Assembly (NCBI RefSeq): GCF_001310225.1
Contig: NZ_CP012898.1
Location: 1,054,001-1,118,000, forward strand
DNA: 64,000 bases
DNA from: Pseudalgibacter alginicilyticus
GTDB lineage: Bacteria; Bacteroidota; Bacteroidia; Flavobacteriales; Flavobacteriaceae
Direction of reading: 5' to 3'
The notes under the pieces: generated by a model
The model's input: only the letters and a program-made list of their open reading frames with translations
Told to the model about the DNA's origin: nothing
Databases searched by the model: none
Program-made: the position numbers and the translations under genes
Shown: in pieces, positions 39,141 to 56,014 of the stretch
Numbering within the stretch: position 1 is the stretch's first letter
Layout: each line of letters begins with the position of its first letter

Positions 39141-40217
39141 TTAATTAAGGTTTTTTAATGGTATTTGTACATTAAAGCTCAATTCTTCTGAAGTTGGCAT
39201 AACTGCACATAATAAAACCGAAGGCTCTCCATTTTTATTGAACCATAATTGTGGTCTTTCTAAATGTTTTAGTTTAGTAACTACTCCATCTTCCCATGTC
39301 ACCTCAGGATAAGACACTAATGGGTTTTTAGATACTTCCCAACCAAATCCATCATGAGATTCAAAAAGCACTAAACCTCTATCTACTTTTAAATAATCAC
39401 CATATTGATCATCTGCAATGGCATAAAACTTGCCTTGTTGATACCAAATAAAAGGATCTTCAGCAGTAGCTTCAGTTAATGTTGGTTCTTCCTTAATTAT
39501 AAATGGGCCTGCAGGACTTGATGATGTTGCTAAACATTGAATTGCAGTAAAATCTTTAGATTTTTCAGAACCTTCAGGTCTAGATTTAAACATCATTAAA
39601 TAAGAGCCGTCGGGCATTTTACAAACACTTGGATTGACCATATAACCATGAGCAGCTTTGCCTTTTTGATAGTCTATTAAAGGCTCATCCATAACTTCCC
39701 AAGGGCCAGCAGGATTATCTGCCATTGCCACACCTATACGCTGACCATAGGTTAAATTACGTCGTGCTCCTAAGCCATAATCCTTGATGTGATGTGAAAT
39801 AAAATATAAGTAGTATTTGTTATTAAAATATTTAACATGTGGATTATGTGCAGCCTCTTCATTCCAATACCCTTTTCCAAAACCATTTAATATTGTTTTT
39901 TTATACTTAAAGGGACCTAAAGGAGAACTTGCAGTTGCATATGCTATTTCTGATTTGTTTAACCAACCTTTAAACTCTGATTCTTTTGGCCATCTTGAAT
40001 AAAACAAATGATATAAACCGTCTTCGGTGTCAATCATTGAGGCTCCCCATACATAATAATCGTCATGTGCCATAACACTATATTTAGGAGTTGGCTGTAT
40101 CATTTCTCCTAAATTAAGTTCGTATTCGTCGTGAGTTAGGTCATTATTGTTTTTCTTATCGTTGTTATTTTTACAAGAACTTACAACGATAAGAAAACAT
40201 ATTAAAAAAAACTTCAT
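39141..40217 (-). CDS. Beta-propeller glycosidase-like lipoprotein (GH43/GH117-like clan), copy 1
   Basis: 358 residues from the ATG at 40217; the frame opens at 40244 inside susD, but the shorter start gives a clean lipoprotein signal (lipobox VVSSC) and a gap of one base to the susD stop. Repeated blade-like motifs include YVWGASMIDTEDGLYHLFYS, HNPHVKYFNNKYYLYF, MVNPSVCKMPDGSYLM, AEDPFIWYQQGKFYAI and ERPQLW. This is the pattern of five-bladed propeller glycosidases of the GH43/32/68/117 type, whose catalytic acids are Asp and Glu on separate blades. I cannot name the exact family or substrate. A paralogue is at 56052. Confidence 0.7.
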   Translation of the reverse strand: MKFFLICFLIVVSSCKNNNDKKNNNDLTHDEYELNLGEMIQPTPKYSVMAHDDYYVWGASMIDTEDGLYHLFYSRWPKESEFKGWLNKSEIAYATASSPLGPFKYKKTILNGFGKGYWNEEAAHNPHVKYFNNKYYLYFISHHIKDYGLGARRNLTYGQRIGVAMADNPAGPWEVMDEPLIDYQKGKAAHGYMVNPSVCKMPDGSYLMMFKSRPEGSEKSKDFTAIQCLATSSSPAGPFIIKEEPTLTEATAEDPFIWYQQGKFYAIADDQYGDYLKVDRGLVLFESHDGFGWEVSKNPLVSYPEVTWEDGVVTKLKHLERPQLWFNKNGEPSVLLCAVMPTSEELSFNVQIPLKNLN

Positions 40218-40218
40218 A

Positions 40219-41754
40219 TTAATATCCAGGATTTTGATCAGCAATGTTAATGTTTGGATTCAATGCCATTTCATCTGAAGGAATGGGCATTAATTCATAT
40301 TTTGGATAATATCCTAAAGCCCATCTATTTTGTGCTGCATGAGTAAATTTTCCTTCTGATACTAAAAGCTCTCTATAATATTTATAATAAGACTCTCCAT
40401 TTTTCTTCATTCTTAGCACATCAAAATAGCGCTGAAACTCTCCAAATAATTCTATTCCTCTCTCATTCGAAATAGCATCTCTAAATGTGTCTTTATTTAA
40501 ATTTCTCGTAATAAGTGTAGAATTGGAACGCCCTCTTACTTCATCAAAAGCATCATAAGCAACATCAGTTGGGCCGTTTAATTCATTTTCTATTTCGGCC
40601 TTCATCAAAAGAATGTCAGCATATCTTAGAATTATTAAATTATTATCGTAATTTCTATCATTAGAATTGTTAGGGTCTCTATATTTACTATAAGCAGGAC
40701 CTTGAGATGCAGCACTTGTATTCTCAGGATATCTTGTCACAGTAGCTCCAGTATTTGAATTTACATAATTGGTAATAAAAAGTTCATTACGTTTGTCTAC
40801 AGTATAATCTCCTGTGGTGTATCTATCGTAAGTAGCATGCTCAACTCGCATTTGTCCTTTTGGATGATCAGGGTCTCCTGCATACCCTAAAGTATTGAAT
40901 GCAGGTAAATAAAAATACGCAAGCAAACTCCCTTTAGATTGTTCTCCAGCAATTGTAGCATCCTGAGAAAATTGAATGGAAAATATTTCTTCAATATTAT
41001 TTTCATTATTAACATCAAAAACATCTAAATAGTTAGGTAATAAATCGTAAACACCCAACTTAATAACCTCATCTACTGCTACTTTTGCTTCCGGCCATTT
41101 ATCTTGAGCCATATATACTTTTCCTAAAAGACCATAAGCAGCACCTTTGGTTGGAAAGCCATATTGTGGTTCTAAAATATTTAAGTTTTCTATAGCGTAT
41201 TCTAAATCTTCTTCAATATAAGCGTAAACTTCAGATTTTGGTGTTCTTGATGGGTATGAGTTTTCTTCAGTTACTAAGTATTCTTTTACTAACGGAATAT
41301 CTCCCCACAAACGTACAGCGTTAAACAAGTTTAAAGCTCTTATAAAGCGTAATCTACCAAGGAAAATTTTCTTTTCATCGCTTGACAAGTTTGGTGTATT
41401 ACTCAATGCAAATATGGTAAAATTGGCTTTGCCGTGCATATAGAAAATAGAATTCCAAAGCCCCGTAACATAACCATCAGTAGGTAATAGTGTTCCATCC
41501 TCATAACGACTAAAAAGGTCTGCATTATGATATCCCTCATCACCAGCATAACCAGTAATCATAAGAAATGCTCTTTTATAATAATTTACTTCGCTAAGAA
41601 GGTCATATACACCTATTAAAGACGCATTTGCTTCTTCATAATTATTGAAGAAAGAATCTTCAGTAAGTGTATCGAATGACTGTTCTTCTAAGATACTTTC
41701 GTTGCATGAGAACACAACTAAAAGCACACATAATATTCCTATTTTTTTCATCAT
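40219..41754 (-). CDS. susD: SusD-like surface glycan-binding lipoprotein
   Basis: 511 residues. The lipobox VVFSC gives a surface-exposed lipoprotein. RagB/SusD features are FNNYEEANASLIGVYDLL near the start, the helical TPR-like scaffold (RFIRALNLFNAVRLWGDIP) and the C-terminal RYADILLMKAEIENEL with RGIELFGEFQRYFDV. It lids the SusC transporter and delivers oligosaccharides to it. It begins 3 nt after the susC stop and is followed one base later by the propeller lipoprotein. The pair marks this region as a PUL; the fine specificity cannot be read from sequence. Confidence 0.95.
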   Translation of the reverse strand: MMKKIGILCVLLVVFSCNESILEEQSFDTLTEDSFFNNYEEANASLIGVYDLLSEVNYYKRAFLMITGYAGDEGYHNADLFSRYEDGTLLPTDGYVTGLWNSIFYMHGKANFTIFALSNTPNLSSDEKKIFLGRLRFIRALNLFNAVRLWGDIPLVKEYLVTEENSYPSRTPKSEVYAYIEEDLEYAIENLNILEPQYGFPTKGAAYGLLGKVYMAQDKWPEAKVAVDEVIKLGVYDLLPNYLDVFDVNNENNIEEIFSIQFSQDATIAGEQSKGSLLAYFYLPAFNTLGYAGDPDHPKGQMRVEHATYDRYTTGDYTVDKRNELFITNYVNSNTGATVTRYPENTSAASQGPAYSKYRDPNNSNDRNYDNNLIILRYADILLMKAEIENELNGPTDVAYDAFDEVRGRSNSTLITRNLNKDTFRDAISNERGIELFGEFQRYFDVLRMKKNGESYYKYYRELLVSEGKFTHAAQNRWALGYYPKYELMPIPSDEMALNPNINIADQNPGY

Positions 41755-41757
41755 TTT

Positions 41758-44700
41758 TTATTTTAAAATAATACTAAAACCTAATTTAAATGTTCTTGGA
41801 AGTGGGTATGACCCCAAATCAATGCCTGGTGCTAACGGCGTGTTTACAATCCCTTTTACTTCTGGGTCATACCCTGAGTAATTAGAAATAATAAATAAAT
41901 TAGAAACCGACACATAAGGTCTGATTAAACTGAATGGACTTTTTTTATTAGGCCTCCATGTATATGATAATGAGATGTTTTGTAATCTTAAAAATGAACC
42001 ATCTTCTACATATCTATCTAAATAATCTGGGTTAACCGCACCTAAAGAAGCTCTAGGATAGGTTGCAGGCGTATTTTCATCCACCCATCTACCATTAAAT
42101 GCTTCAAGGGTTTGACTATATCTACCATCCCAAATATTCATGCCTTCCCAAGTAATTTTGTTTAAGTTAAACACATCATTTCCTAACATGCCATTAAAGA
42201 GCATATTCACTGAAAATCTCTTGTAAGTAAAAGTTGTATTGATTCCATAAATTAAGTCTGGTTCAGGATTACCTATAACAACCTTATCTTCATCATTGAT
42301 TTCTCCATTATCATCTTGATCTATATAAATAATATCTCCAGGATTAGGAGCAACACTAGACCGTGTTGGTGCATCTACAACGTCTGCAGCGGATTGATAA
42401 ATACCATTCGTTTGATACCCATAAAACAAACCGACAGTTCTTCCCAAATATGAAATATTTGGAGCTCCACTCTGTAAGCCTCCAACTCCAGGGCCAAATC
42501 GATAAGGATCACCATCTAAGTCAATAACTTTAGATTTATTTTGAGAGAGAGAAACCCCTATATTCCATGTAATATTTTCTTTTTTGATAATATCACCTTC
42601 TATGAATAGTTCCCAACCTTTATTCTCAATTTCACCTCCATTAACTGTAGTAGAGGAAAATCCACTAGATAAGGGGAATGTTTTATCTAACAATAAGTCT
42701 TTAGTGTTCTTTTTATAATAATCTGCTGTTACATTTAACCTATTTTGAAACAACCCAATATCTAACCCTACATTACCTTGATAAGTTGTTTCCCACTTTA
42801 AATCATTATTAAATTGATAAGATGAAGAAGTTACACCTGTTTCAATAGTTCCATTAATAGGATATCGTCCTCCTTGTGCTAGCTGAGCCACTGTAGCTAA
42901 TGGACTTATTGCTTGATTACCACTGGTACCATAACTCAATCTTAATTTAAGAGCCGAAAGCCAATCTTCATTTTTAAGAAATTGTTCATTTTTCATTCTC
43001 CAAGCAAAAGCTGCTGAAGGAAAGAATGACCATTTGTTCCCTTCCGCGAATTTTGAAGACCCATCATATCTACCTGTGAAAGTAAATAGATATTTATTAC
43101 TAATAGTATAATTAAGTCTTCCATAATAGGATGCAAGTCCCCATTCTTTATGTGAGCTAATTGGTGTACCAGTAATTGCCGCTCCTACAAAACTTTCATA
43201 TCCTAAAGTTGGAATATCAAATCCTGATGCTTTATTTCTAAAGCTTTTTCTAATCCATTTATGAATGGTTTGTCCAACGACACCATTTAACCTGTGGTTG
43301 TTATTTATTTTCTTATTAAATGACAGTGTATTTTCATTTATATAATCAAAATTTGAGTTTTCAACCCTAGAAACAACACCATTATTCCTATCACTTGCAT
43401 AAGTGCCTTCACCCCAAAATGAATTTCGGATTGAATTAGAAAAATTAAAACCAAATGTAGATTTAAAAGTTAACCAATCATTTATTTCAAAAATTCCAAA
43501 TAATTTTGATTGGGCAAAATAAAGTCTCTGTTCATCTACAATATTGTTAATTTGTGTAATAGGATTATACGTTTCATCTTCATTATCATTGATAAGATCC
43601 TCAACATTAACATCTAAATCTTGAACCCAAGTTGGATTAAAAGCTCGATATTGCACAGCCATACTAATAGGAGAGAAAAAACCATTTGTTCCATTATTTG
43701 AATACGGAACAATATTAGATACAGTACTACTGAAATTAGAGTTTATTCCAACTTTAAATGAATTTGAAACCTTGGCTTCTAAATTAGATCGTATAGAATT
43801 TCTTTTTTGATCTGATTTTATGATAACTCCTTCAGCTTCATTATGATTTGCAGCTATTGAGTATTTAAAATTATCCGTACCGCCTCTAACAGATAGATTT
43901 ATATCGTTACCTATAGCTAAACGATATAACTCATCTTGCCAATTTATATCATAATTATAAGTTTCATACGTCGATAAATCATTCGGATCACCAAAAACAG
44001 GTAAATTAGTAGGGCCATCATTTATTGATGCTTCATCGTAAAGCTGTGTCCATTGTTGAGGCGTAATTACATCTATTTTATCACGAATTGTTGAAAAGGT
44101 TGTACCTACATCTAATTGAATAACTTTCTCTCCTGACTTTCCCTGTTTTGTTGTAATTAATATTACACCATTTGCTCCACGAGATCCGTAAATAGCAGTA
44201 GCAGATGCATCTTTAAGGACATTAATAGATTCAATATCATTAGGGTTTATCATAGACAACGGACTTGGTGCAGGTGTGCTCCCATAATCTTCAGTACCTT
44301 CAGAATAGAAAGAATCTGAGTTATTCATTTCCATACCATCTATAATATACAAAGGCTGGTTTGACCCCGTTAGAGAATTACCCCCACGAATATTGACATC
44401 TGCATTAGAACCTGGAGCTCCACCCGTGGTAGTAATCTGTACTCCGGGCATAGTTCCTTGCAGTAATTGCTCCGCAGATGATACAGCTCTTTGTTCTGTT
44501 AATTCTGTTTTAATACTTGACATAGAACCTGTTAGATCAGATTTCTTAGATTGTCCATAACCTATAAGAAGGACCTCATCTAATGTAGAATTTTCGGTTT
44601 CCATTACCACATTGATAACGTTTTGACCATTTATAGGAATGGTTTTATTCTTCATTCCTAAATAAGTGAATCTTAAAGAACCCGATTTGTTTCCTGGTTT

Positions 44701-44880
44701 TATTGCATACTTCCCATCAAAATCAGTAATTTCTCCAATTGATGTATCAACAACAACAATAGTAACACCTACTAAAGGCTCTCCTGTTTGATCTTTCACA
44801 ACGCCAGTTACTATCTGTTGTGCTGATATTTGAAAGGCACACGATAAAAAAACACTTAATAAAAATAATTTGCATTTCAT
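41758..44880 (-). CDS. susC: SusC-like TonB-dependent oligosaccharide transporter
   Basis: 1040 residues, normal for SusC. Signal peptide (ending ISAQ), carboxypeptidase-regulatory-like domain at about 22-100 (VTGVVKDQTGEPLVGVTI), TonB box/plug at about 107-230 (VLLIGYGQSKKSDLTGS, then ATAIYGSRGANGVILITTK) and a 22-strand barrel to the C-terminus (TFKLGFSIILK). It imports oligosaccharides into the periplasm with energy from TonB-ExbBD. It lies 440 nt downstream of the regulator gene, with a -7 box and a C7 tract in the leader. It should be the first gene of the left arm transcript. Confidence 0.96.
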   Translation of the reverse strand: MKCKLFLLSVFLSCAFQISAQQIVTGVVKDQTGEPLVGVTIVVVDTSIGEITDFDGKYAIKPGNKSGSLRFTYLGMKNKTIPINGQNVINVVMETENSTLDEVLLIGYGQSKKSDLTGSMSSIKTELTEQRAVSSAEQLLQGTMPGVQITTTGGAPGSNADVNIRGGNSLTGSNQPLYIIDGMEMNNSDSFYSEGTEDYGSTPAPSPLSMINPNDIESINVLKDASATAIYGSRGANGVILITTKQGKSGEKVIQLDVGTTFSTIRDKIDVITPQQWTQLYDEASINDGPTNLPVFGDPNDLSTYETYNYDINWQDELYRLAIGNDINLSVRGGTDNFKYSIAANHNEAEGVIIKSDQKRNSIRSNLEAKVSNSFKVGINSNFSSTVSNIVPYSNNGTNGFFSPISMAVQYRAFNPTWVQDLDVNVEDLINDNEDETYNPITQINNIVDEQRLYFAQSKLFGIFEINDWLTFKSTFGFNFSNSIRNSFWGEGTYASDRNNGVVSRVENSNFDYINENTLSFNKKINNNHRLNGVVGQTIHKWIRKSFRNKASGFDIPTLGYESFVGAAITGTPISSHKEWGLASYYGRLNYTISNKYLFTFTGRYDGSSKFAEGNKWSFFPSAAFAWRMKNEQFLKNEDWLSALKLRLSYGTSGNQAISPLATVAQLAQGGRYPINGTIETGVTSSSYQFNNDLKWETTYQGNVGLDIGLFQNRLNVTADYYKKNTKDLLLDKTFPLSSGFSSTTVNGGEIENKGWELFIEGDIIKKENITWNIGVSLSQNKSKVIDLDGDPYRFGPGVGGLQSGAPNISYLGRTVGLFYGYQTNGIYQSAADVVDAPTRSSVAPNPGDIIYIDQDDNGEINDEDKVVIGNPEPDLIYGINTTFTYKRFSVNMLFNGMLGNDVFNLNKITWEGMNIWDGRYSQTLEAFNGRWVDENTPATYPRASLGAVNPDYLDRYVEDGSFLRLQNISLSYTWRPNKKSPFSLIRPYVSVSNLFIISNYSGYDPEVKGIVNTPLAPGIDLGSYPLPRTFKLGFSIILK

Positions 44881-45319
44881 ATACTTTTGGTTTTAGTTTT
44901 AACAATAGTAATTCATATACGGGTAGAAAAAAGGGTATATGGGGGGGTATTTTTTAGTTGAAATTAAAATTATTTTAACAAAATTAAATCAATTTCGAAA
45001 CCTTGAGTTAAACTTAAAAATCAAAAACTTAACACTTAATTAATTTAACTTTTTAGAAAAAAACAATGAAATTCATTTACGCAAAAACTATTGCTACCAC
45101 TATATTTATTTAGGATTAATATAATTTAAGTCTAAATAGTAATCTTTAAAAGATAGTTAATACTAATTAATACCTGTTTTTAATAATTGAAGCATCTTAA
45201 TACAAAAAAAAGAAACTTATTTTTATATTTTAGTTTTAAAAGTGAGAAGGTTTAAATCTTTAAAAATTAATTAGAAAAAATTCAAAAAAATCGTATAAAT
45301 AAATTCTTTTATTGACGTA
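44881..45319 (-). other. susC upstream region: promoter and leader
   Basis: 439 nt without an ORF. It contains a -7 element (44979-44986, minus) and, in the predicted leader, a run of seven C on the coding strand (44941-44947), unusual in this AT-rich sequence. The rest is AT-rich with no strong inverted repeat. Binding sites for the adjacent regulator are expected here. Confidence 0.6.
44979..44986 (-). promoter_or_regulatory. -7 element TAATTTTG for the susC arm
   Basis: Reverse complement of CAAAATTA: an exact TAnnTTTG match about 100 nt upstream of the susC ATG, giving a leader of roughly 90 nt. No -33 TTG lies at ideal spacing, as expected of an activator-dependent promoter. Confidence 0.45.
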
Positions 45320-47719
45320 TTACTTTTTATACGGTTCATTAAAATAATTTTCCCAATCTTTCTTGAACTGTTGTTGAAATTTTAAAGCTTTGGTTTTGTT
45401 TTCTTCTTCAAGAATCCTATTTTTATTTGTATAGGCAACTTCATTTACAACATCAAAAACAAATAAAGTATCTGCTATTCTTAATAATTGATGTTGAGAA
45501 AATTTTGATGTTTTCAAATTCAATAAGTCTTCCAAAACATCAAGGATTTTTGAATGTATTGTACTTTTACAGTTATCTACAATTTCTGATTGAATATCAG
45601 CTATTAACTCACCCTTTTCTAAAATACTTAAAAAACTATTCAATTCATCACCCTTTATAGGTAAGTCTTTTTTAATAGATTCCGTAATGACAGCATTCAA
45701 TTGATTATATTGAAACAAATCAATAAACAAATCATCATCTGCTCTTATAAACCATTTTTTATTTTCGTATTTTATTTTTAATAATTTATTAGGAATATTA
45801 GCTCTTATATTTTGCAAATAGGTGCTCCTTATATTTTTAGCTCTTTTTGCATTAGCTCCAGGCCACATAATATCTGATAATTTTTGAGGAGAAATCCCCT
45901 TTTCTTCCATAGTATAGTATAGTATAACAAACAGAAAAATCTTTTGTTTAAAAGGTAAATCATTTAAAATATTAACACCTTTATTATTTGTTATTTCAAA
46001 TGTTCCAAAACATTTAATACTACCGCTATCTGAATTTTTTTTAAATGTTTTAAAACGGTTTGAAGAAATCGATTTTTTTCGTCGCTTTAAAAAAAGTAAA
46101 ACTATAGTTCCAATAACAAGTGCTATTGATAAAACCATTAAAAATTGAAACTCCTTATTATTATTTTTAATTTTCACAGGAAATTCTCCATTGAAAACAC
46201 GGTTAATTTCTTGATCAGTTAACACTCTTGACCACAAGGCAACATCTTTTAAGTTTCCGTTATACAACTCCCCCCATTGATCATTACCTAAAATGTATTT
46301 ATTATCGTCTGTTTTTAATTCATACTGTTTAACAACCTGAAAATCTGTAAGTATGCCATTAACATAAAATTTTACATACTCTCCCGCTTTATAAGTTATA
46401 GCTAAATGTTGCCATTCGTCCTTTTTTAATTCTGTTTTTCTATCAACAATATCAATTACACCTGGAAAAGTCAAGCATAAGTGCCCTTTTCGTATTTTAA
46501 TAGTAAAACCATTATTTGTTGATAAAATAGAATAATTGTTGTTTATGTGTTTTGGTTTAGCAAAAAAACTAACCGTTAAAGCTCGTTTTTCAAAATCACT
46601 ATTTAAAGCTTTGAAATAAAAAACATTATTCTCTCCATCAAAAAAAGCCACACTTTTCTTTTTTGTTTCCTTGTGATACTGAATATTTTTATCAATTTCT
46701 AAAATATTATATGAAAAGCTATCTCCATGTAAAGGAAGATAAAAATCTAAATTTTCATCTATTTCTATTTTTTTTGCTTGCATATTTTTAAACAAGCTAT
46801 AATTATTTGTGTTAAATGTAAAAAGTTCGGGTATAAAATTAAAACCTTCTTTATACGGCTCCACATCTAATTTTCCAAGATATTGATTGCGCTGTTCATT
46901 AAAACGAAAAACATCTGAGGATATATGAGTTACTCCAAAACTTTGAAGAAATGGCTGATGTTTCCATCTTATGTTTTTTTCATAACCTCCATTTTCATTA
47001 GTAGTTTTTAATTTTATTGTTAAAGGAATTTCCTTTTTTAATTGAATAACCATCTCGGGGTTATTTGTGCAAATAAAATTTGCAAACTTACCTGTTTTAC
47101 GCAAATAATTTAAAACGGCTTCTTTTAAAGTATTATTTATAAAATTAGAATCTGTAAGCTCTTGTTTATAATTAGGATTAAACTCAAAAAGAGTGAAATG
47201 ATTGGAAGGATCTCCCTTAATAAAAAGTTTTTCTGCATCAATTGGCATGCCTACTCCCATTTTTACATAAGTTATCGGAGAATTTTTTATATTGAAATTA
47301 TTAAAAACAAGTACTTGCTTTTTATGAGATAATAGATCTTCAGAAAGACTATGTGAGTTTGGTTCTATTAATAGACTATTATTTTTAAAATATTTATTAA
47401 TTTTAAGAGTATTCAAATTAGCATTATTAATAAATGCTATAAAATCGTTAGGATTATTTTTTAAAAAAGTTTTTATAAAAATAAACTCTGAAGTATTAAA
47501 AACAGTATTTGAATCAAGAATAAAAGCTCTATACCCTATATCTAATAATTCTTGAATAGGTTTGTTTTTTGAGGTTGTAACAAAAATTTCCTCATCAATA
47601 TATTTCGATCTAAATATATTAGAATTAACATTTTGACTACTTACATACTCAACACTTATAAAAAAAAAGGAGATTATTAATAAAGTACTAAAATTAAAGT
47701 GTATTGTAGTTCCTTTCAA
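45320..47719 (-). CDS. Membrane-spanning PUL regulator: periplasmic LamG region, TM helix, cytoplasmic winged-helix-like domain
   Basis: 799 residues. Signal peptide (about 1-28, VSSQ). Residues about 45-330 are a periplasmic region whose start resembles a degenerate PI-PLC-like barrel (IQELLDIGYRAFILDS, KTFLKNNPNDFIAFI); this part is tentative. A LamG/concanavalin-like domain lies at about 350-507 (LTVSFFAKPK, KKDEWQHLAITYKAGEYVKFYVNG). One TM helix at about 524-545 ends in KRRKK, placing the C-terminus inside the cell. The cytoplasmic part (about 563-799) begins with CFGTFEI and has PQKLSDIMWPGANAKRAKNIRSTYL, like the winged-helix plus helical (SARP/BTAD-type) layout. No histidine kinase, receiver or sigma/anti-sigma motif is present. 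The gene is directly upstream of susC, so it probably senses the glycan and activates the PUL. Confidence 0.75.
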   Translation of the reverse strand: MKGTTIHFNFSTLLIISFFFISVEYVSSQNVNSNIFRSKYIDEEIFVTTSKNKPIQELLDIGYRAFILDSNTVFNTSEFIFIKTFLKNNPNDFIAFINNANLNTLKINKYFKNNSLLIEPNSHSLSEDLLSHKKQVLVFNNFNIKNSPITYVKMGVGMPIDAEKLFIKGDPSNHFTLFEFNPNYKQELTDSNFINNTLKEAVLNYLRKTGKFANFICTNNPEMVIQLKKEIPLTIKLKTTNENGGYEKNIRWKHQPFLQSFGVTHISSDVFRFNEQRNQYLGKLDVEPYKEGFNFIPELFTFNTNNYSLFKNMQAKKIEIDENLDFYLPLHGDSFSYNILEIDKNIQYHKETKKKSVAFFDGENNVFYFKALNSDFEKRALTVSFFAKPKHINNNYSILSTNNGFTIKIRKGHLCLTFPGVIDIVDRKTELKKDEWQHLAITYKAGEYVKFYVNGILTDFQVVKQYELKTDDNKYILGNDQWGELYNGNLKDVALWSRVLTDQEINRVFNGEFPVKIKNNNKEFQFLMVLSIALVIGTIVLLFLKRRKKSISSNRFKTFKKNSDSGSIKCFGTFEITNNKGVNILNDLPFKQKIFLFVILYYTMEEKGISPQKLSDIMWPGANAKRAKNIRSTYLQNIRANIPNKLLKIKYENKKWFIRADDDLFIDLFQYNQLNAVITESIKKDLPIKGDELNSFLSILEKGELIADIQSEIVDNCKSTIHSKILDVLEDLLNLKTSKFSQHQLLRIADTLFVFDVVNEVAYTNKNRILEEENKTKALKFQQQFKKDWENYFNEPYKK

Positions 47720-48152
47720 TTTGTATTAATTTAACATATTACGAAAATACCTGTTGATGTTTTAACAGAAAATTAGAATTGAAGACTTGTTTTCTGTTCA
47801 AATGTAATAATTTTTTTTATCCTATCTTGATTTTTTGCATACCAACCTAAAGACTCTCTTAGCTAGTCTAAACCTCGTTTATGATATAATAAATACACCT
47901 TCTATTTTTTTTCAAAATTATAAAAAAACATTTGTTTTTATGCAGAATTATTATTGTCTTGATTTTGAGTTTTATAAAATAGGTAATAATCTTTTTACTT
48001 TAATTACCCCTTTGGATACTCTTTTATATACTCTATTCATAATGATATTAGCAAAATACATAAGCATAACACCATATTAAATAACTTTATTGTATAATTT
48101 TTTAAGTAAAAAGGATAAAAACTAAATATAGCATAAATAAAATTTCATTTTA
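47720..48152. other. Divergent control region between the regulator and the middle arm
   Basis: 433 nt between divergent start codons. It contains a 9-bp inverted repeat (47764-47798) near the regulator start. An 81-codon frame at 47835-48080 starts with a TTG and looks spurious. No exact TAnnTTTG is found near either start, which fits activated promoters. Confidence 0.55.
47764..47798. promoter_or_regulatory. 9-bp inverted repeat upstream of the regulator gene
   Basis: AACAGAAAA (47764-47772) and TTTTCTGTT (47790-47798) are exact reverse complements, 26 bp centre to centre, 45-80 bp upstream of the regulator start codon. It is a candidate operator for the regulator or another factor. Confidence 0.45.
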
Positions 48153-51100
48153 ATGAAAAATACTCCCAAAAAAATTAAATCCTGTTCCTATTTATTTTTA
48201 ACGATGGTTTTATTAGTTTATCCTGTATATTCTCAAACAGAACCCAATTGGATTGATCAGGTAACAAACTACCAACAACCTTCTTGGTTTAATAGAGAAA
48301 GGGTTCAAATACATACTAGATTAGCTGCTCCTTATTACAATAATCCAGACCACCCCATTTATTCAAATTGGGCGAGAGATGTGATTTCTGTTATAGGTGC
48401 TACTGTTTTTACTAGACACATCAAAACAAATGATGATCCAATCCATTGGCAAAGTTCATGGGGAAAATGGACTGACTTTGCTGAAAATAGAAATATCATT
48501 CAAGAAGCCATTAATGAAGCTCATACCCACAATACAAAAATGATTGGATATTACAATCATTATTCCGATGGATATATTCGAGACAACTACCCTGAATATA
48601 AATGCAAAGATGTAAATGGTAATGATATTATTAGAGAAGGAAGAGGCACAATGATATGTTTTAATTCTCCATATATAGATTTACTTGCCACGAGATTAAT
48701 AGAATTTGCTCAAATGGGAGGCGATGGGTTATATTTTGACGAGATTCATATGCCACGCGAAGGATGTTGGTGCAACTATTGTAAAACAAAATTTAACGAG
48801 CTAACAGGTCAGACTGCACCAACAACCATTAATGTTAATTCCCAACTGTACAAAGATTATCAAAACTTTAATAATGAATCTGTCGTTGAAGGATTTTATA
48901 AACTCCGACAAACATTAGAGGCTGAAAACCCGGATTTAGTTATGATAATTGGTAGTAATACACTACCAAAATTGACAGAGCGTCATTTAAACACTAATTT
49001 GTTTCGCTTAGCTCATGCTCATAAAACGGAATGGGACATATCACAAAGAACACTGTCCTCAGTGCCGAATGGAATAATGGTTCCTGATGAGAAAGTATGG
49101 AGAGGCCTATCTTATACTTTCTCAAGAGATATTTCTGATGGACGCCCTGCTCATTATTGGGTACCAGGAATGAGTTTTGTTCCCTCAAAAGATATTTTGG
49201 GAGCTACCGCTGGCTTAATTTCTTTTGGAAACATAGCTAACTTAGATATGAGGGAAACACTTTCCCCCGATTTAGATTTTATTAATGCTGTAACTTATGG
49301 CAATAATGTAAGTTCGGTATTTGAAGATTCTAAGCCTAATAGATGGTTGTTAATACATTTTAACGAGAAAGCGTTAGAAACTTATAGTGGAGAAACTGCT
49401 AATGGATGGTCTAATTTTTTATCACCATTTTACGGTTCGTATTATGCGGCTTCGGAGAATAAATTGTCTGTTGGAATAATTACTGATTCTCAACTTAAAC
49501 AAGGATTATTTCAAGGAGCTAAAGTCTTATTTACACCAAACACAGAAACTATATCTGCGGAGTTACAGATTAAAATCGATGAGTTTGAATCTCAAGGTGG
49601 TGTAGTAATAACGGAAGACCCCTCTTGGGAATGGGAAAATGGCGGCACTGATTTTAATAATGCAAAAAATGAATTTCAAGCAATACTTAATAATGTGTAT
49701 TCGCAACCATTATTCAAATCTAATGGGGGTTCTGGGTTTTATTACGTTAATTATTTTGAAAAAAATGATGCTGGGAAATTTAAATATATAGCATCCTATA
49801 GTAATGAACTTGAGTGGGTAACGGTTGGTGCTACCGCGCAAACAAATGGTAATTTACAGCCTGATCCAATAAGTGGAATCAAATTAATCGTAAATTCAGG
49901 ACAAATACCAACATCTGTAAGGAATGTGCTTACAGACACTCCTGTATCTTTTAATATTTCTAATGGTGTTTTATCATTAGATGTTCCTAATTTTCAGAAC
50001 TCAGGACTTATTGAATTAACTTATGATGAGCCGTTAATTGCACAAACCAATAATAATAGTTTGTTTCTTATAGATGATGCCTATGTACAAGGAGGTACAA
50101 ATGGAGATTCAAACTTTGGAGTAGCAAGGTTGGCCACAAAAAGAGATGACGCTTTTAGTAATCAAGTACAACATTCATACTTAAAATTCGACTTAACTCA
50201 CCTTGGAGCTTACCAAAACGTAAAATTAAGATTAACTAAAGAGGACTCCATAAACAACAATTTCGAAGCTTTTTTTGTGACAGACGATAGTTGGTTAGAA
50301 AGCACTATAACATGGAACACTGCACCTGTAGCAGGAACATCATTAGGAATTATTTCTAGTGGCACGTCTCCGCAAATAGAATGGAACATTACTGACATTG
50401 CCAATACGGAGCTGTCTGGAGATGGGATTATTTCAATAATGATAGTTTCATCTATTAACGGATTACAGTCAAATTTATATAGTAAAGAAACTGCTCCTAC
50501 TAATAGTAAAAAACCATTACTTGCCGTAACAGTCGATTCTTCTGAACGGCAATTCCCAGTAGATGATGCATATGTAAGAGCAGGAACAGGTAGCGAAGTT
50601 AACTTTGGAACAGCGAGATTAATAACTAAAAGGGATGACTCTTCTGTCAATTTGGAAAGATTGTCGTTTGTAAAATTTGACTTATCAAACATAGGAACCA
50701 ATTACAATAATCTAACATTTACTCTCACCAAAGAAGATAATATAAGTAATACCTTCGAAGCCTTTTTGGTTACGGACGACAACTGGTCAGAAAATAACAT
50801 TACTTGGAGTACTGCCCCAAAAGCTCATACATCATTAGGAAAAATAAACAACAGCACTACAAATAAATTAGAATGGGACATTACTAATGTTGCTCAAGAA
50901 GAACAAAATAAGGATGGAATAATCACGATTATGATAATTTCTTCCAAAAACGGAATACAGTCCAATATATATAGCAAAGAATCTGCTCCTACTGATTTGG
51001 ACAAACCAGCTGTAATTATTAATAACAAAACCTCATTAAACGTATTATCTTACTGCTATAATTGTGAAGAAAAAAATGTATATATATCCCCAAATCCAAC

Positions 51101-51293
51101 TCTCGATGTTATTAATATTACAGGTATTGATATGGGTAAAAAAATATACTTGTATAATATATCTGGTAAAATGGTTTTAGAGCAAGATTTCACGCCATCC
51201 ATTAATACCAAGAAATTATTGAAAGGGATGTACTTTTTAACTATTGTTGATAAAGAAAATTTCAAACACCATTTTAAATTTATAAAAAAATAG
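48153..51293 (+). CDS. T9SS-secreted putative glycoside hydrolase with two DNRLRE domains
   Basis: 1046 residues. Signal peptide (about 1-27). A TIM-barrel-like region at about 45-385 carries GGDGLYFDEIHMPREGCWCNYC, with Asp196-Glu197 in the FDE motif followed by a CxxxxCxC-type cysteine cluster, as in 'hypothetical glycosyl hydrolase 6'/GH29-like barrels. A flavodoxin or GATase-like beta-galactosidase-trimerisation domain follows at about 395-560 (FESQGGVVITEDPSWEW). Two tandem DNRLRE/CBM96-like domains start at Asp641 and Asp804 (period 163 residues). A type A T9SS C-terminal sorting domain lies at about 975-1046 (VYISPNPTLD). It is probably a surface or extracellular polysaccharide-acting enzyme at the head of the middle arm. 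The family is not assigned and the activity is inferred. Confidence 0.65.
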   Translation: MKNTPKKIKSCSYLFLTMVLLVYPVYSQTEPNWIDQVTNYQQPSWFNRERVQIHTRLAAPYYNNPDHPIYSNWARDVISVIGATVFTRHIKTNDDPIHWQSSWGKWTDFAENRNIIQEAINEAHTHNTKMIGYYNHYSDGYIRDNYPEYKCKDVNGNDIIREGRGTMICFNSPYIDLLATRLIEFAQMGGDGLYFDEIHMPREGCWCNYCKTKFNELTGQTAPTTINVNSQLYKDYQNFNNESVVEGFYKLRQTLEAENPDLVMIIGSNTLPKLTERHLNTNLFRLAHAHKTEWDISQRTLSSVPNGIMVPDEKVWRGLSYTFSRDISDGRPAHYWVPGMSFVPSKDILGATAGLISFGNIANLDMRETLSPDLDFINAVTYGNNVSSVFEDSKPNRWLLIHFNEKALETYSGETANGWSNFLSPFYGSYYAASENKLSVGIITDSQLKQGLFQGAKVLFTPNTETISAELQIKIDEFESQGGVVITEDPSWEWENGGTDFNNAKNEFQAILNNVYSQPLFKSNGGSGFYYVNYFEKNDAGKFKYIASYSNELEWVTVGATAQTNGNLQPDPISGIKLIVNSGQIPTSVRNVLTDTPVSFNISNGVLSLDVPNFQNSGLIELTYDEPLIAQTNNNSLFLIDDAYVQGGTNGDSNFGVARLATKRDDAFSNQVQHSYLKFDLTHLGAYQNVKLRLTKEDSINNNFEAFFVTDDSWLESTITWNTAPVAGTSLGIISSGTSPQIEWNITDIANTELSGDGIISIMIVSSINGLQSNLYSKETAPTNSKKPLLAVTVDSSERQFPVDDAYVRAGTGSEVNFGTARLITKRDDSSVNLERLSFVKFDLSNIGTNYNNLTFTLTKEDNISNTFEAFLVTDDNWSENNITWSTAPKAHTSLGKINNSTTNKLEWDITNVAQEEQNKDGIITIMIISSKNGIQSNIYSKESAPTDLDKPAVIINNKTSLNVLSYCYNCEEKNVYISPNPTLDVINITGIDMGKKIYLYNISGKMVLEQDFTPSINTKKLLKGMYFLTIVDKENFKHHFKFIKK
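50073..51026 (+). repeat. Tandem in-frame duplication of a DNRLRE domain (489-nt period)
   Basis: Unit 1 starts at 50073 and unit 2 at 50562. Shared blocks include DDAYV, NFG.AR, TKRDD, LTKED, FEAF.VTDD.W and NGIQSN.YSKE. The units are clearly homologous at protein level though diverged in DNA. Confidence 0.8.
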
Positions 51294-51418
51294 ATTTTTC
51301 ACAATATTTTCAAAACTTACCCTATAAAGTAACCATTATAATACCCCATAATGATGTTATTTTGAAAAATTAATGAATAAAATTATAATAATAAACCAAA
51401 GAAAATAAAATTTTAAAA

Positions 51419-51478: not shown

Positions 51479-52858
51479 ATGTTTTATAATACAAGATTAC
51501 TTTTTTTAATATTTACCAGTTTATTAGGTGTTGTAAGCTGCTCCTTTAAATCAAAAAAAGATAAGGTTAATAAAATTAATGAAGAAAAAACAAATTTTAT
51601 TGTAATTTTTGTTGATGATTTAGGTTATGGAGACATAGGCTGTTTTGGAGCCAAAGGTTTTAAAACACCTAATATTGATCAAATGGCAAAAGAAGGTGCT
51701 CGTTTCACAGATTTTTATGTTCCGGCATCTGTATGTACTCCATCAAGAGCAGGTTTATTAACAGGTTCTTACCCAAAACGGGTAGGACTTCATAAAGAAG
51801 TTTTATATCCATATTCTACTTCAGGATTAAATCCTAATGAAATTATTATTCCGGAGGTATTAAAACCTGCAGGATATACTACAGGATGTATAGGCAAATG
51901 GCATTTAGGACATCAAGAAAAATTTATGCCAAATAATCAAGGATTTGATTATTTTTATGGTGTACCATATTCCAATGATATGGACGGACATGTATACGTA
52001 AATATACCTTTCACATCACCACCACTTCCTATATATAAAAATAAAGTTAAAGTAGCTGAGGGCATCAATCAAGATTCGTTGACTATTCGTTGGACCAAAG
52101 CAGCTACCTCCTTTATAAAGGAAAATAAAAAACAACCCTTTTTCCTTTATTTAGCACACAATATGCCACATCGCCCTTGGCATGTCTCCAAACGCTACAA
52201 AGGAAGTAGTGAAAAAGGATTGTATGGCGATGTTATACAAGAATTAGATTGGAGTGTTGGAGAAATACTAAAAACATTAAAAGAAACAAATTTAGACGAA
52301 AACACCCTTGTAATATTTACATCAGATAACGGCCCAGTAGAGACATTAAAAAATGGTGGCTCTGCCGAACCACTTAGAGGAGGTAAAATTTCTACTTGGG
52401 AAGGCGGATTACGTGTTCCTTGTATTATGCGTTGGCCAGGAAAAATAAAACCAAATAAAGAAATTAATCAAATAACTTCTGTTATGGATTTCCTACCCAC
52501 CTTTGCTTCAATAGCTCAAGTAAAAGTTCCTATTTCTCATAAAATTGATGGTTATAACATATCAAATATATTACTTGAAGATAAAAAAACAGTTTCACCT
52601 TATAATGCCTTTTATTTTTATGGACGTAATGGAGACTTAGAAGGTATACGTGAAGGCAATTGGAAATTTTACATAAAAAAATATAATATGCGTAAAAAAA
52701 CATACACCAATCACATGAATTTGTACAATTTAAAAAATGATGTTGGAGAAAAACAAAATATTGCTGATATGCATCCTGAAATTGTTGAAAAGCTACATCA
52801 AAAAATGCTAAAGTTTGACAAGCAATTATCAATTGAAGCAAGACCTATTGGCCACTAA
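51479..52858 (+). CDS. S1 sulfatase lipoprotein (arylsulfatase-like)
   Basis: 459 residues. The lipobox GVVSC gives a lipoprotein. Asp46-Asp47 in FVDDLGYGD bind Ca2+, Cys86 in SVCTPSRAG is the formylglycine residue, and IGKWHLG and FTSDNGPVE complete the sulfatase core. A C-terminal region with REGNWKFYIKK follows. The subfamily cannot be chosen with confidence. It acts on sulfate esters of imported or surface-bound oligosaccharides. It starts 185 nt after the secreted barrel protein and 19 nt before the next sulfatase start, leading a tight four-gene unit. Confidence 0.92.
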   Translation: MFYNTRLLFLIFTSLLGVVSCSFKSKKDKVNKINEEKTNFIVIFVDDLGYGDIGCFGAKGFKTPNIDQMAKEGARFTDFYVPASVCTPSRAGLLTGSYPKRVGLHKEVLYPYSTSGLNPNEIIIPEVLKPAGYTTGCIGKWHLGHQEKFMPNNQGFDYFYGVPYSNDMDGHVYVNIPFTSPPLPIYKNKVKVAEGINQDSLTIRWTKAATSFIKENKKQPFFLYLAHNMPHRPWHVSKRYKGSSEKGLYGDVIQELDWSVGEILKTLKETNLDENTLVIFTSDNGPVETLKNGGSAEPLRGGKISTWEGGLRVPCIMRWPGKIKPNKEINQITSVMDFLPTFASIAQVKVPISHKIDGYNISNILLEDKKTVSPYNAFYFYGRNGDLEGIREGNWKFYIKKYNMRKKTYTNHMNLYNLKNDVGEKQNIADMHPEIVEKLHQKMLKFDKQLSIEARPIGH

Positions 52859-52877
52859 TTATATATTTAACAAAATT

Positions 52878-54407
52878 ATGAATAAATTATTTTCTGTACT
52901 ATTAACACTATCTGTACTATTAGGCTGCAAAAGCACCCCTTCAATTACAACTACTAAACCACTACAACTACCTAATATTATTTATGTTTTAACAGATGAT
53001 TTAGGTATAGGAGATGTTAGTACTTACAATCCTGAATCAAAAATTAAAACCCCTTATATTGATAAATTAGCATCAGAAGGAATGACGTTTACAGACGCAC
53101 ATACTACATCTGCAGTTTGTACACCAAGCAGATATAGCATATTAACAGGAAGGTACAGTTGGCGAACTAAATTAAAAAGCAGAGTGCTATATGGTGAAGA
53201 CCCTCACTTAATACATCCACAAAGAGCTACTGTAGCCTCATTACTAAAAAGCGCTGGTTACTATACAGCTTCTATAGGAAAATGGCATCTTGGATGGGAC
53301 TGGCAAAGAAATGAACACGGTAGTATAGATTTTTCAAAACCCATAAAAAATGGTCCAAATGTTAATGGGTTTGATTATTCTTATGGTTTTTGCGGCTCTT
53401 TAGATATGCCTCCGTATGTGTATGTAGAAAACGGAAAACCAACTGCCATCCCAAATGATTCTTCTGAAAACACAGATTATCAAGCACATTGGCGTAAAGG
53501 TCTTACTGCTCCAGATTTTATACATGAGGAAGCTACCCCTAATTTTTTTGAACGATCATTTAATTTTATCAAAAAACACGCACAATCAAACAAGCCTTTT
53601 TTTCTTTATTTACCATTACCATCCCCCCACACACCCATTTTACCAACAAAAGAATGGCAAGGTAAAAGTGGTTTGAATCCTTACGGAGATTTTGTTATGA
53701 TGGTAGATAACTATATCGGAAAATTAGAAGCTATAATTAAAGAATCTGGAATTGAAGAGAATACTATGATTGTTTTCACAAGTGACAATGGCTGCTCTCC
53801 TAGAGCCAATTATCAAGAATTATTGAATAAAGGTCATAACCCTAGTTATATTTATAGAGGAACAAAATCCGATATTTTTGAAGGAGGTCATAGAGTTCCT
53901 TTTATTATTAAATGGCCAAATGCGGTGCCTCAAGGCACAATTTGTAGCCAAACCATTTCTCAATCAGATTTAATGGCAACTTGTGCTTCTTTAACCAATT
54001 TAAAACTATCAGATAACACCGCTGAAGATAGTTTTAATATGTTACCATTAATAAAAAACCCTAACACTGAAAACTACCAAAGAAAGGCAACTGTACATCA
54101 TTCCATCGACGGGAGTTTTGCAATACGCAAAGGAGATTGGAAATATATTTTTTGCTCAGGTTCAGGGGGCTGGAGCTATCCAAAAACGATTAAAGACACT
54201 GAAGGGCTTCCGCCTTTTCAATTATATAATTTAAAATCAGATCCAGGAGAGTCAAACAATTTATACGGAAAATATCCTAAAATAGAAAATGAACTTTTTA
54301 ATCTTATGTCTAATTATATTAAAAATGGCAGAAGTACTCCTGGCGCTAAAGTAAAAAATGACGGCGAACAATGGTGGCCTCAATTAAGTTGGATGAAAAA
54401 TTCTTAA
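52878..54407 (+). CDS. S1 sulfatase lipoprotein
   Basis: 509 residues from the ATG at 52878. The frame extends to 52815 inside the previous gene, but only the later ATG gives a lipoprotein signal peptide (lipobox SVLLGC). Asp40-Asp41 lie in VLTDDLGIGD and formylglycine Cys81 in AVCTPSRYS, followed by GKWHLGWDW. The YSILTGRYSWR context resembles the S1_15/S1_16 sulfatases, which include N-acetylgalactosamine-6-sulfatases, though this is tentative. It is 19 nt after the previous sulfatase and 20 nt before the fucosidase gene. Confidence 0.92.
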   Translation: MNKLFSVLLTLSVLLGCKSTPSITTTKPLQLPNIIYVLTDDLGIGDVSTYNPESKIKTPYIDKLASEGMTFTDAHTTSAVCTPSRYSILTGRYSWRTKLKSRVLYGEDPHLIHPQRATVASLLKSAGYYTASIGKWHLGWDWQRNEHGSIDFSKPIKNGPNVNGFDYSYGFCGSLDMPPYVYVENGKPTAIPNDSSENTDYQAHWRKGLTAPDFIHEEATPNFFERSFNFIKKHAQSNKPFFLYLPLPSPHTPILPTKEWQGKSGLNPYGDFVMMVDNYIGKLEAIIKESGIEENTMIVFTSDNGCSPRANYQELLNKGHNPSYIYRGTKSDIFEGGHRVPFIIKWPNAVPQGTICSQTISQSDLMATCASLTNLKLSDNTAEDSFNMLPLIKNPNTENYQRKATVHHSIDGSFAIRKGDWKYIFCSGSGGWSYPKTIKDTEGLPPFQLYNLKSDPGESNNLYGKYPKIENELFNLMSNYIKNGRSTPGAKVKNDGEQWWPQLSWMKNS

Positions 54408-54427: not shown

Positions 54428-56014
54428 ATGATTACCAAAAAATCTTTATTAATAATATTATTGATAATCTCGTTTTCAAAAACCACAATTGGGCAAAGTG
54501 TAGCAAATACTAATACATTAAAACAACGTATGCAATGGTGGGAAGATGCACGTTTAGGAATGTTTATACACTGGGGAGTATTTTCAGAGTTAGGAGGGGA
54601 ATGGAATGGCGTTGATTATGGAAAAGAAATGGGAACTGCTAGTGCCGAATGGATTTACTTAATGTCTGAAATTGACACCAATGATTACAAACAAGCTGCT
54701 CAAAGGTTTAATCCTAAAAATTATTCGCCCGAAGAATGGGTGAAATCTGCCAAAGACGCAGGTATGAAATATATTGTTTTAACAACAAAACACCATGATG
54801 GCTTTGCTTTGTTCAACACCAAAGCATCAGACTGGAATATCTTGCAAGCATCACCTTATAAAAAAGATTTAATAAAACAATACATTGACGAATGTCACAA
54901 ACAAGGTATTCGTGTAGGTTTATATTATTCGCATGAAAAAGATTGGTACCATCATGTGCGCTTACGTAATGATACATCGCCAATAAAAGAATCATATAAA
55001 AAATTAGTAAAAACCCAAATTGAAGAACTTTTAACGAACTATGGCCAAATTGATTTAATTTGGTTTGACATGGGAATTAGTGCCCATAAAGAATTCAATC
55101 AAATGTGCTATGATTTAGTTAGAAAACTACAACCCAACTGTATAATTAGTAGTAGAATTGGAAATGGTTTAGGAGATTATAAAAATTTAGGAGACAGAGA
55201 ACTCGTTAATCCTGGTATGAATGAATATGTAGAATCAATAATGACAATGAGGTTAAATTGGGGTTTTGATAAAAATGATAAAAACTGGAAATCATCCTCA
55301 GAAGTTATTAGCATGATTTCTAAGAGTGCTTGTAGAGGCTCTAATTTTCTATTAAATTTAGGACCTCAACCCGATGGAAAGTTTACCCCCGAAGAAACTA
55401 TTAGATTAAAACATATTGGAGAATGGATGACATTAAACGGTGATGCTATATATGAAACCAAGGGGTCTCCATTTAAAGGGGAATACAAATGGGGATCTTT
55501 AACATCAAAAAAACAACATGCTTTTCTTCATTTGTTTGATATGAAAGAAGATCATATTTCGGTAAATGGAATTATTTCTAAAGTAAAAAAAGCATATCTG
55601 CTTCACAACAATCAACCAATTGAGTTTAAGCAGAATTTAACTGACAAAAAAATCAGTCTAGATATTTCTACAATTACAAATAGCCATGCCACTAATATTA
55701 TAGCACTTGATTTAGAGGGCGAATTAAAAGTAGATATAAACGAAGGTCCTACTTGGATTCCTGAACCTATTAAGCACTTAACACGAAAAGAAATTGTTGG
55801 TATCGCAACGAATGTTTCCAATTTTGGATTTACTATAAGTAATAAAGAAGATGAAATTATTTTTAAATTAAATGAAAATATTGAGTATCGAATTGTTAAA
55901 AATAAGGAAATATTAAGCGTACAAGGATTTCATGTTAGTAACGGTGAAAAATACAGGGTAGTTTACACGCCTTTTGACACCCCTGTTATAGAAATAATTT
56001 CTAAAGAAAACTAA
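54428..56014 (+). CDS. GH29 alpha-L-fucosidase
   Basis: 528 residues. Signal peptide (about 1-23, TTIGQ), with no lipobox, so it is periplasmic. GH29 motifs: WWEDARLGMFIHWGVFS (His48-Trp49), TTKHHDGFALF (residues 119-129) and the catalytic nucleophile Asp214 in IWFDMG. The acid/base residue cannot be placed by eye, as usual in this family. It retains configuration and removes alpha-L-fucose from non-reducing ends. A beta-sandwich domain follows the barrel (about 370-528). Placed among sulfatases, it is expected to act after desulfation of fucose residues. It sits 20 nt after the sulfatase and 37 nt before the propeller protein. Confidence 0.92.
   Translation: MITKKSLLIILLIISFSKTTIGQSVANTNTLKQRMQWWEDARLGMFIHWGVFSELGGEWNGVDYGKEMGTASAEWIYLMSEIDTNDYKQAAQRFNPKNYSPEEWVKSAKDAGMKYIVLTTKHHDGFALFNTKASDWNILQASPYKKDLIKQYIDECHKQGIRVGLYYSHEKDWYHHVRLRNDTSPIKESYKKLVKTQIEELLTNYGQIDLIWFDMGISAHKEFNQMCYDLVRKLQPNCIISSRIGNGLGDYKNLGDRELVNPGMNEYVESIMTMRLNWGFDKNDKNWKSSSEVISMISKSACRGSNFLLNLGPQPDGKFTPEETIRLKHIGEWMTLNGDAIYETKGSPFKGEYKWGSLTSKKQHAFLHLFDMKEDHISVNGIISKVKKAYLLHNNQPIEFKQNLTDKKISLDISTITNSHATNIIALDLEGELKVDINEGPTWIPEPIKHLTRKEIVGIATNVSNFGFTISNKEDEIIFKLNENIEYRIVKNKEILSVQGFHVSNGEKYRVVYTPFDTPVIEIISKEN

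Follow-up and report, generated by a model that had tools for sequence, protein, structure and literature searches.

A probable membrane-anchored, SARP-like one-component activator beside a susC-like gene of Pseudalgibacter alginicilyticus

In Bacteroides, the regulators of polysaccharide utilization loci (PULs) have been grouped as SusR-like proteins, hybrid two-component systems (HTCSs) and extracytoplasmic function (ECF)/anti-sigma pairs (excerpts of PMC3878776). SusR is described in the same excerpts as a one-chain membrane regulator with a periplasmic sensor and a cytoplasmic, C-terminal DNA-binding part, the latter unlike any other known DNA-binding domain; the motif spacings predicted for it are 67 or 77 bp. 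The binding sites of Streptomyces antibiotic regulatory proteins (SARPs) are direct repeats with an 11- or 22-bp period, the last of which lies 8 bp from the −10 element, and they are occupied by a side-by-side dimer (PMC10936776, in excerpt). Two or three heptamers with spacers of 4–15 nt have also been described (PMC10972967, in excerpt). Here, a 64,000-nt stretch of the P. alginicilyticus genome (assembly GCF_001310225.1, contig NZ_CP012898.1, positions 1,054,001–1,118,000; the window) was analyzed, in which an open reading frame (ORF) beside a susC-like gene encodes what is probably a membrane-anchored SARP-like one-component activator of this PUL. No prior description of such a regulator was found among the literature matches listed, which were partial texts.

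The regulator ORF (Table 1) is intact on the minus strand, with zero internal stops; the plus-strand reading contains many. An earlier, sequence-only reading of the window had placed the gene at exactly these coordinates and had assigned to it a signal peptide, a LamG domain and one transmembrane (TM) helix, with no kinase or receiver motif. All of these features are recovered here, and the strand is minus. Hydrophobicity is strongest at the N-terminus and at residues about 526–544, and the AlphaFold model places helices at residues 10–29 and 520–548. The TM helix is followed by a K/R-rich KRRKK segment, which matches the expectation for an N-out/C-in topology. In a Pfam scan carried to E 1, the only family above its cut-off is Laminin_G_3 (residues 372–506, E 6.9e-21, 75.4 bits vs a cut-off of 27.6). 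The same scan returned no kinase, receiver, HisKA, HATPase_c, Response_reg or AraC-type helix-turn-helix (HTH) domain and no DUF6377 (PF19904, the SusR family); an NCBIfam scan up to E 1 gave zero matches, and neither scan contained a sigma-70 or FecR-type anti-sigma domain. The fold of the LamG domain matches that of AbnA domain 4 (5hon; Z 19.6, rmsd 2.6, 184 residues aligned), a structure solved with arabino-oligosaccharide, and other lectin-type jelly rolls match as well. Fold lists for the full model consist mostly of LamG-type lectin domains; the clostridial neurotoxin receptor-binding domains among them share no more than the modeled fold.

To the N-terminal side of LamG, residues about 35–245 are modeled with low AlphaFold confidence. 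The degenerate PI-PLC-like start suspected in the sequence-only reading finds a faint echo among the relatives: 3 of the 26 members aligned match PI-PLC-X, with E 2e-4 at best, and the best match of profile A6 in the PDB is the PI-PLC 2plc (E 0.0053). The window protein itself has no Pfam PI-PLC-X match, and several relatives (e.g., L019 and L021, about 600 aa) do without the region. A PF00388 search matched 0 of 80 genomes, and its controls were equally silent. Judged from these sequences, the PI-PLC-like region is probably accessory and degenerate.

The structure of the cytoplasmic domain (~240 residues) was modeled from 47 aligned cytoplasmic domains (alignment A5; predicted local distance difference test 91.5, predicted template modeling score 0.87). 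A Foldseek search with this model gave six matches at E ≤ 0.001, namely three AfsR and three EmbR chains, with E values from 7e-9 to 2e-5 over almost the full length. By VIA-align, AfsR (8hvr) aligns with Z 16.0 and rmsd 4.9 over 234 of 242 residues, and EmbR (2ff4) with Z 15.5 and rmsd 4.7 over 230. The remaining entries listed have Z ≤ 10.0, and the response-regulator-type ones among them match the winged helix only. Because the AfsR and EmbR matches span its length, the domain as modeled is a SARP-type winged helix followed by a BTAD; in the SARP activators AfsR and EmbR, the winged helix is of OmpR type. The resemblance to SARP/BTAD winged helices proposed earlier is thereby borne out by the structure model, in which the C-terminal part adopts a DNA-binding-type fold. 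The sequence signal alone is weak: 2 of the 26 members in the alignment match BTAD, with E 0.0015 at best, the relative L151 reaches 18.3 bits against a cut-off of 22.1, the window protein has no Pfam BTAD (PF03704) match, and the PDB matches of profile A2 include a PhoB-family protein (0.07) and AfsR (0.5). With no BTAD sequence match over the cut-off, the protein is filed as SARP-like and not as a SARP member.

The LamG–TM–cytoplasmic core is common to 25 relatives in alignment A1, from which L034, L035 and L042 were left out for their other architectures. Cytoplasmic identity of the window protein to its relatives is only 15–33%. This divergence, together with a long branch in the cytoplasmic-domain tree, would suit a lectin-type membrane protein that has lost DNA binding by its cytoplasmic domain. 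Such a loss is hardly to be credited, given that W619, R631, R639 and the remaining invariant A1 columns are kept (true by construction of the list), that the ORF is intact and that predicted operators are present.

The one-component membrane principle is not new, since SusR already embodies it; the DNA-binding domain of the window protein differs. In sus operons located via SusE/F, a 531–558-aa gene with one internal TM helix, divergent to a susA-like gene (L119–L121), was taken as SusR by position. DUF6377 is found in both operon copies scanned (L120, L121), and the A5 profile gave no match at E ≤ 10 in the sus-operon regions. With DUF6377 missing from the window protein, a SusR-like identity was rejected: the two families share the principle, not the domain. 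HTCSs, too, are single chains encoded beside susC in which a periplasmic sensor is coupled to a cytoplasmic DNA-binding part, whereas the window protein lacks the HisKA, HATPase, receiver and AraC domains. ToxR and CadC also act as one-component activators in the membrane and have a winged helix of OmpR type (8b4d, Z 8.1; 5ju7, Z 8.0). Their winged helix lies N-terminal to the TM helix; in contrast, that of the window protein lies C-terminal to it and carries a BTAD. The earlier proposal that the protein stands in place of an HTCS or SusR holds insofar as it has no domains of either, but a full HTCS is encoded in an adjacent PUL about 29 kb away, which limits the replacement at most to this PUL's own divergent promoter region.

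The operator of the family was sought in homologous loci. Of 61 loci (L050–L070 and L127–L166), 52 were kept (regulator ORF >400 aa, enough upstream sequence, no duplicates), and in 38 of these a gap of 40–400 bp separates the regulator from the next co-directional gene, loci with divergent or distant next genes falling outside the 38. When direct-repeat spacings of 8–44 were compared in the 38 gaps, spacing 12 yielded 188 matches in 36 gaps, and any other spacing at most 14. The repeat consensus after the regulator is ATTACCCC-N4-ATTACCCC-N4-ATTAC. The pattern ACCC-N8-ACC occurs in 34 of 38 homolog gaps vs 1 of 235 co-directional control gaps, and at least one 12-bp repeat match in 36 of 38 vs 23 of 235. 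Repeat type follows clade (A, B and C, assigned by hand from the cytoplasmic-domain tree): in the 32 gaps covered by this comparison, TTACCC is found in 26/26 of clades A and B and TTCACC in 5/6 of clade C. The Bacteroidota −7 consensus is TAnnTTTG. Among the 27 of 38 sites with a repeat score ≥ 17 and enough sequence, a −7-like element (TAnnTTTR; TTTCTTTG and the like in clade B) lies at column 41–42 in 26, by a loose pattern with no control and counting L056. The script's first match gives 25 of 27 and puts L056 at column 37, yet TAGATTTA is visible there at column 42; L151 is the sole site without the element. The motif follows the regulator in varied contexts, including MocA operons, a sulfatase gene in L151 and, as a variant, susC in L149. 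Upstream of the regulator gene itself it is rare (1/52), which leaves autoregulation unsupported. Two other spacings were set aside: the classical 11/22-bp SARP spacing showed no enrichment in the homolog gaps, and an apparent excess at 21 bp on the upstream side of the regulator gene was due largely to L150 and L153.

By analogy, this operator geometry is closely similar to that of the SARPs, with which the family shares the fold of the whole cytoplasmic domain and the placement of direct repeats, in tandem, close upstream of the promoter core. Read as a heptamer plus a 5-nt spacer, the repeat falls inside the 4–15-nt range given in the excerpt of PMC10972967. The period is 12 bp, rather than the classical 11 or 22 bp of SARPs or the 67 or 77 bp predicted for SusR in the excerpts of PMC3878776. 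Also in contrast to the SARPs, the window regulator is membrane-anchored behind a periplasmic lectin sensor and belongs to a Bacteroidota host.

Twenty-six of the 38 sites, of TTACCC type and picked by score, were aligned without gaps (A7), and a weight matrix trained on these 26 other-genome sites alone was run on both window strands. Without a −7 term, its top three sites score 13.3, 8.5 and 6.6 and lie upstream, in sense direction, of the 48153 gene, the sulfatase gene at 51479 and susC; about 6% of position–strand pairs in the window are sense-upstream gaps. With the −7 term, the same sites lead at 48003 (+, 13.0), 51316 (+, 12.0) and 44951–44923 (−, 4.0). Among 200 Markov-random windows scored in this way, the score of the best site is equaled or exceeded in 2 and that of the third site in 1. 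The exact pattern TACYC-N7-TACYC-N7-TACYC has two matches in the 3.99-Mb genome, both flanking the regulator gene, and its reversed control has 0. Each of the two intergenic regions earlier named as candidate binding regions (44881–45319 and 47720–48152) contains a predicted operator, and a third is predicted at 51316, all at scores below those of the training sites. No match from general scans of the window for repeats and for sigma-70 could be called above chance, and the best matrix score in the region of the neighboring HTCS-bearing PUL is 2.2. A P-II-like gene (named by eye) is directly preceded by a 12-bp tandem ACCCTAAATATT-type repeat at G000:C1:2250232-2250260 (L211); this repeat may be chance or a site of another factor.

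The gene neighborhood of the family was compared between 40 family regions (up to 20 kb each, several shortened by contig ends; L145 is an AraC-type relative) and 40 control regions, two stretches on each of 20 contigs from 19 family-bearing genomes, hand-placed away from the regulator and with f47 genomes left out. Gfo/Idh/MocA homologs occur in 24/40 family vs 0/40 control regions and 3-keto-disaccharide-hydrolase (PF06439) homologs in 17/40 vs 0/40. Of the 39 regions in which a family ORF is present, 23 have a MocA homolog as the next gene, read in the same direction as the regulator, and this order recurs in most of the named loci L050–L070. Based on these neighbors, the LamG-type family is probably primarily a regulator of 3-keto-glycoside use. 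SusC is not enriched (8/40 vs 8/40), and SusD (7/40 vs 4/40), SusC with SusD (6 vs 4) and sulfatases (3/40 vs 5/40) are found at the counts given; on the SusC, SusD and sulfatase figures, a general link of the family to PULs was rejected. The position of the window member beside susC is thus a minority context, shared by the kelch-type relatives L149 (directly before susC/susD) and L147.

The neighborhoods also bear on where the protein acts. It could be a SARP-like regulator with its main targets elsewhere, the neighboring HTCS running the PUL and the three repeats being decoys or another factor's sites; the association with Gfo/Idh/MocA and not with SusC, the HTCS about 29 kb off and the lower scores of the window sites favor this. 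Nevertheless, the sole two exact pattern matches in the genome flank the regulator gene, the HTCS has a susC-like neighbor of its own, and the motif tracks the regulator gene across its varied contexts. On balance, targets lying mainly elsewhere are considered improbable.

Several results weigh against a one-component activator of this PUL, the even SusC counts and the poorly modeled N-terminal region among them. The window sites (13.3, 8.5 and 6.6) fall below the training sites (27.7–44.6), and single sites with such scores also arise by chance: the best of 20 random windows reach 21.4, 10.8 and 8.6, and the control regions 8.6 and 8.2. The −7 term is negative for the susC and 48003 sites, and with it the 40 control regions have best scores of 11.1 and 6.2, both above the susC site at 4.0. 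The TACYC pattern was written after the first two window sites had been seen. When one mismatch is allowed, the genome has 4 matches, namely the two exact ones, the 51318 site and one upstream of the P-II-like gene, vs 3 for the reversed control. A local covariance model (R1; 22 matches to E 10) ranks part of operator 2 second and operator 1 eighth, with operator 3 absent. The Fisher value for ACCC-N8-ACC (9e-38) overstates independence, because the homolog loci come from related species. The window protein sits close to clade A in the cytoplasmic-domain tree, but its branch is long (2.27) and the support for this position modest (85/70). Finally, DNA binding, the ligand and activation by the regulator are predictions from sequence and model.

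Despite these points, we consider with good confidence that the protein is a one-component, membrane-anchored transcription activator that senses glycan in the periplasm and controls the genes of this PUL through tandem 12-bp TACCC operators. The architecture, fold and operator conservation that enter this mechanism are computed. The modeled structure, the topology and the predicted operators agree with the single-chain glycan sensor and DNA-binding regulator first envisaged. In the proposed mechanism, a glycan fragment from the PUL substrate, probably sulfated and fucose-containing, would enter the periplasm and bind the LamG/N-terminal region. Binding would align or oligomerize the cytoplasmic domains, the signal passing through the one TM helix. 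Three tandem TACCC repeats of 12-bp period, ending shortly before a Bacteroidota-type −7 element, would then be occupied cooperatively by side-by-side protomers, which would recruit RNA polymerase, as AfsR does. The predicted targets are susC–susD and the genes behind them, the 48153 gene and the sulfatase–sulfatase–GH29–GH43 run (GH, glycoside hydrolase). A repressor that occupies the repeats without ligand and is released once glycan binds would also account for repeats inside a promoter region. This arrangement appears distinctly improbable, as SARPs are activators with a similar repeat-to-promoter geometry (PMC10972967 and PMC10936776, in excerpt) and the repeats stop upstream of the −7 element.

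Table 1 Features of the regulator gene, its predicted operators and the surrounding PUL (window coordinates; CBM, carbohydrate-binding module; T9SS, type IX secretion system).
Feature	Coordinates	Strand	Remarks
Regulator gene	45320..47719	-	799 aa, TTG start; signal peptide, PI-PLC-like region, LamG, TM, winged helix, BTAD
Signal peptide, residues about 1-28	47636..47719	-	called from hydrophobic stretch
N-terminal periplasmic region, residues about 35-245, weakly PI-PLC/TIM-barrel-like	46985..47617	-	relatives and profile A6; low model confidence
LamG/concanavalin-A-like domain, residues about 318-514	46178..46768	-	Pfam match; AbnA domain 4 fold match
Single TM helix, residues about 520-548	46076..46162	-	hydrophobicity and AlphaFold model helix
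Winged HTH, residues 567-660	45740..46021	-	structure model, fold match
BTAD (TPR-like helices), residues 667-793	45341..45721	-	structure model, fold match
Predicted operator 1: three TACCC, 12-bp period, starts 44949, 44937, 44925	44923..44951	-	upstream of susC
-7-like element TACTATTG, column 42 of operator 1	44903..44910	-	5/6 letters of TAnnTTTG
Predicted operator 2: TACCC/TACTC/TACTC, 12-bp period, starts 48005, 48017, 48029	48003..48031	+	upstream of 48153
Poor -7-like element GATATTAG, column 42 of operator 2	48044..48051	+	
Predicted operator 3: TACCC/TAACC/TACCC, 12-bp period	51316..51344	+	upstream of sulfatase 51479
-7-like element TTATTTTG, column 42 of operator 3	51357..51364	+	5/6 letters
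Sulfatase	33428..34870	-	
852-aa protein	36513..39071	-	only C-terminal Fn3_assoc/CHB_HEX_C, no catalytic Pfam match
GH43-like enzyme	39141..40244	-	
SusD-like protein	40219..41754	-	
SusC-like TonB-dependent receptor	41758..44880	-	predicted target
CBM96 protein	48153..51293	+	T9SS tail, sub-cut-off GHL6 match; predicted target
Sulfatase	51479..52858	+	predicted target
Sulfatase	52815..54407	+	
GH29 alpha-L-fucosidase	54428..56014	+	
Weakly GH43-like protein	56052..57269	+	28.8 bits vs cut-off 32.2

The sulfatases, GH29 and GH43-like enzymes of the PUL suggest a sulfated, fucose-containing glycan as its substrate, and the 852-aa protein is possibly a glycosidase. The proteins scanned between 33.4 and 57.3 kb gave no further regulator domain; the scan excluded ORFs <100 aa, short antisense ORFs and the protein at 35432. 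Past the window, the HTCS gene (L207:13017-17162, −; G000:C1:1131017-1135162) encodes Reg_prop, Y_Y_Y, HisKA, HATPase, receiver and AraC domains. The same region contains a second susC-like gene, a further polysaccharide lyase family 8 (PL8) enzyme and a susD-like gene (domains unscanned), and it is a separate PUL adjoining that of the window. The window's PL8 gene (59218–62289) and the sulfatases at 57560 and 62371 (the latter named by eye) probably belong to this adjoining PUL, as judged from strand.

Whole-protein matches at E ≤ 1e-12 were found in 22 of 397 genomes of the window's family, its own included. One of the 22 (G350) matches by LamG; its protein (L035:754-2457, +) combines two LamG domains with an AraC-type HTH, a hydrophobic stretch lying between them, has neither winged helix nor BTAD, and from its sequence may be another one-component LamG membrane regulator. 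A cytoplasmic profile matched 6 of 395 genomes of the class at E ≤ 1e-8, again counting its own; in family f47 it matched 12 of 121 genomes at E ≤ 0.01, 3 of them strongly. The source genome has one copy of the regulator at the thresholds used, and a single-protein scan of genome contigs returned no relatives. Three sensor types occur in the family: PI-PLC-like plus LamG, two LamG domains (L144, L151) and a kelch propeller (L146, L147, L149, L150, L153, L156 and L157). The last two types carry the same cytoplasmic domain as the window protein behind other periplasmic sensors, and some of them adjoin susC/susD, GH92-like genes or sulfatases. In 2 of 6 loci searched, rRNA genes (23S, 5S) lie upstream of the regulator (L050:1-288, L063:4182-7334); such genes in some genomes may be the reason that many homologs are close to contig ends.

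It seems likely that these proteins form a Bacteroidota family of membrane-anchored SARP-like activators with exchangeable sensors and a tandem 12-bp direct-repeat operator that keeps a constant distance to the −7 element, serving mostly 3-keto-glycoside catabolism in Flavobacteriaceae-type genomes, with some members recruited to PULs as here. In Bacteroides thetaiotaomicron, the BT2156–BT2160 cluster contains the glycoside 3-dehydrogenase BT2158 (PMC11300592, in excerpt), and its regulator is BT2160 (PMC11879859, in excerpt), which is counted among the SusR paralogs in the excerpts of PMC3878776. The present family would supply a candidate regulator for the 3-keto-glycoside operons of Flavobacteriaceae, a role that this SusR paralog has in B. 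thetaiotaomicron. If the reading is correct, PUL regulators would gain, beside HTCS, SusR and ECF/anti-sigma, a class in which a SARP-like domain is joined to a membrane-spanning lectin sensor. It would be a glycan-utilization switch of a new type in Bacteroidota, and its predicted operator would make regulons readable from sequence.

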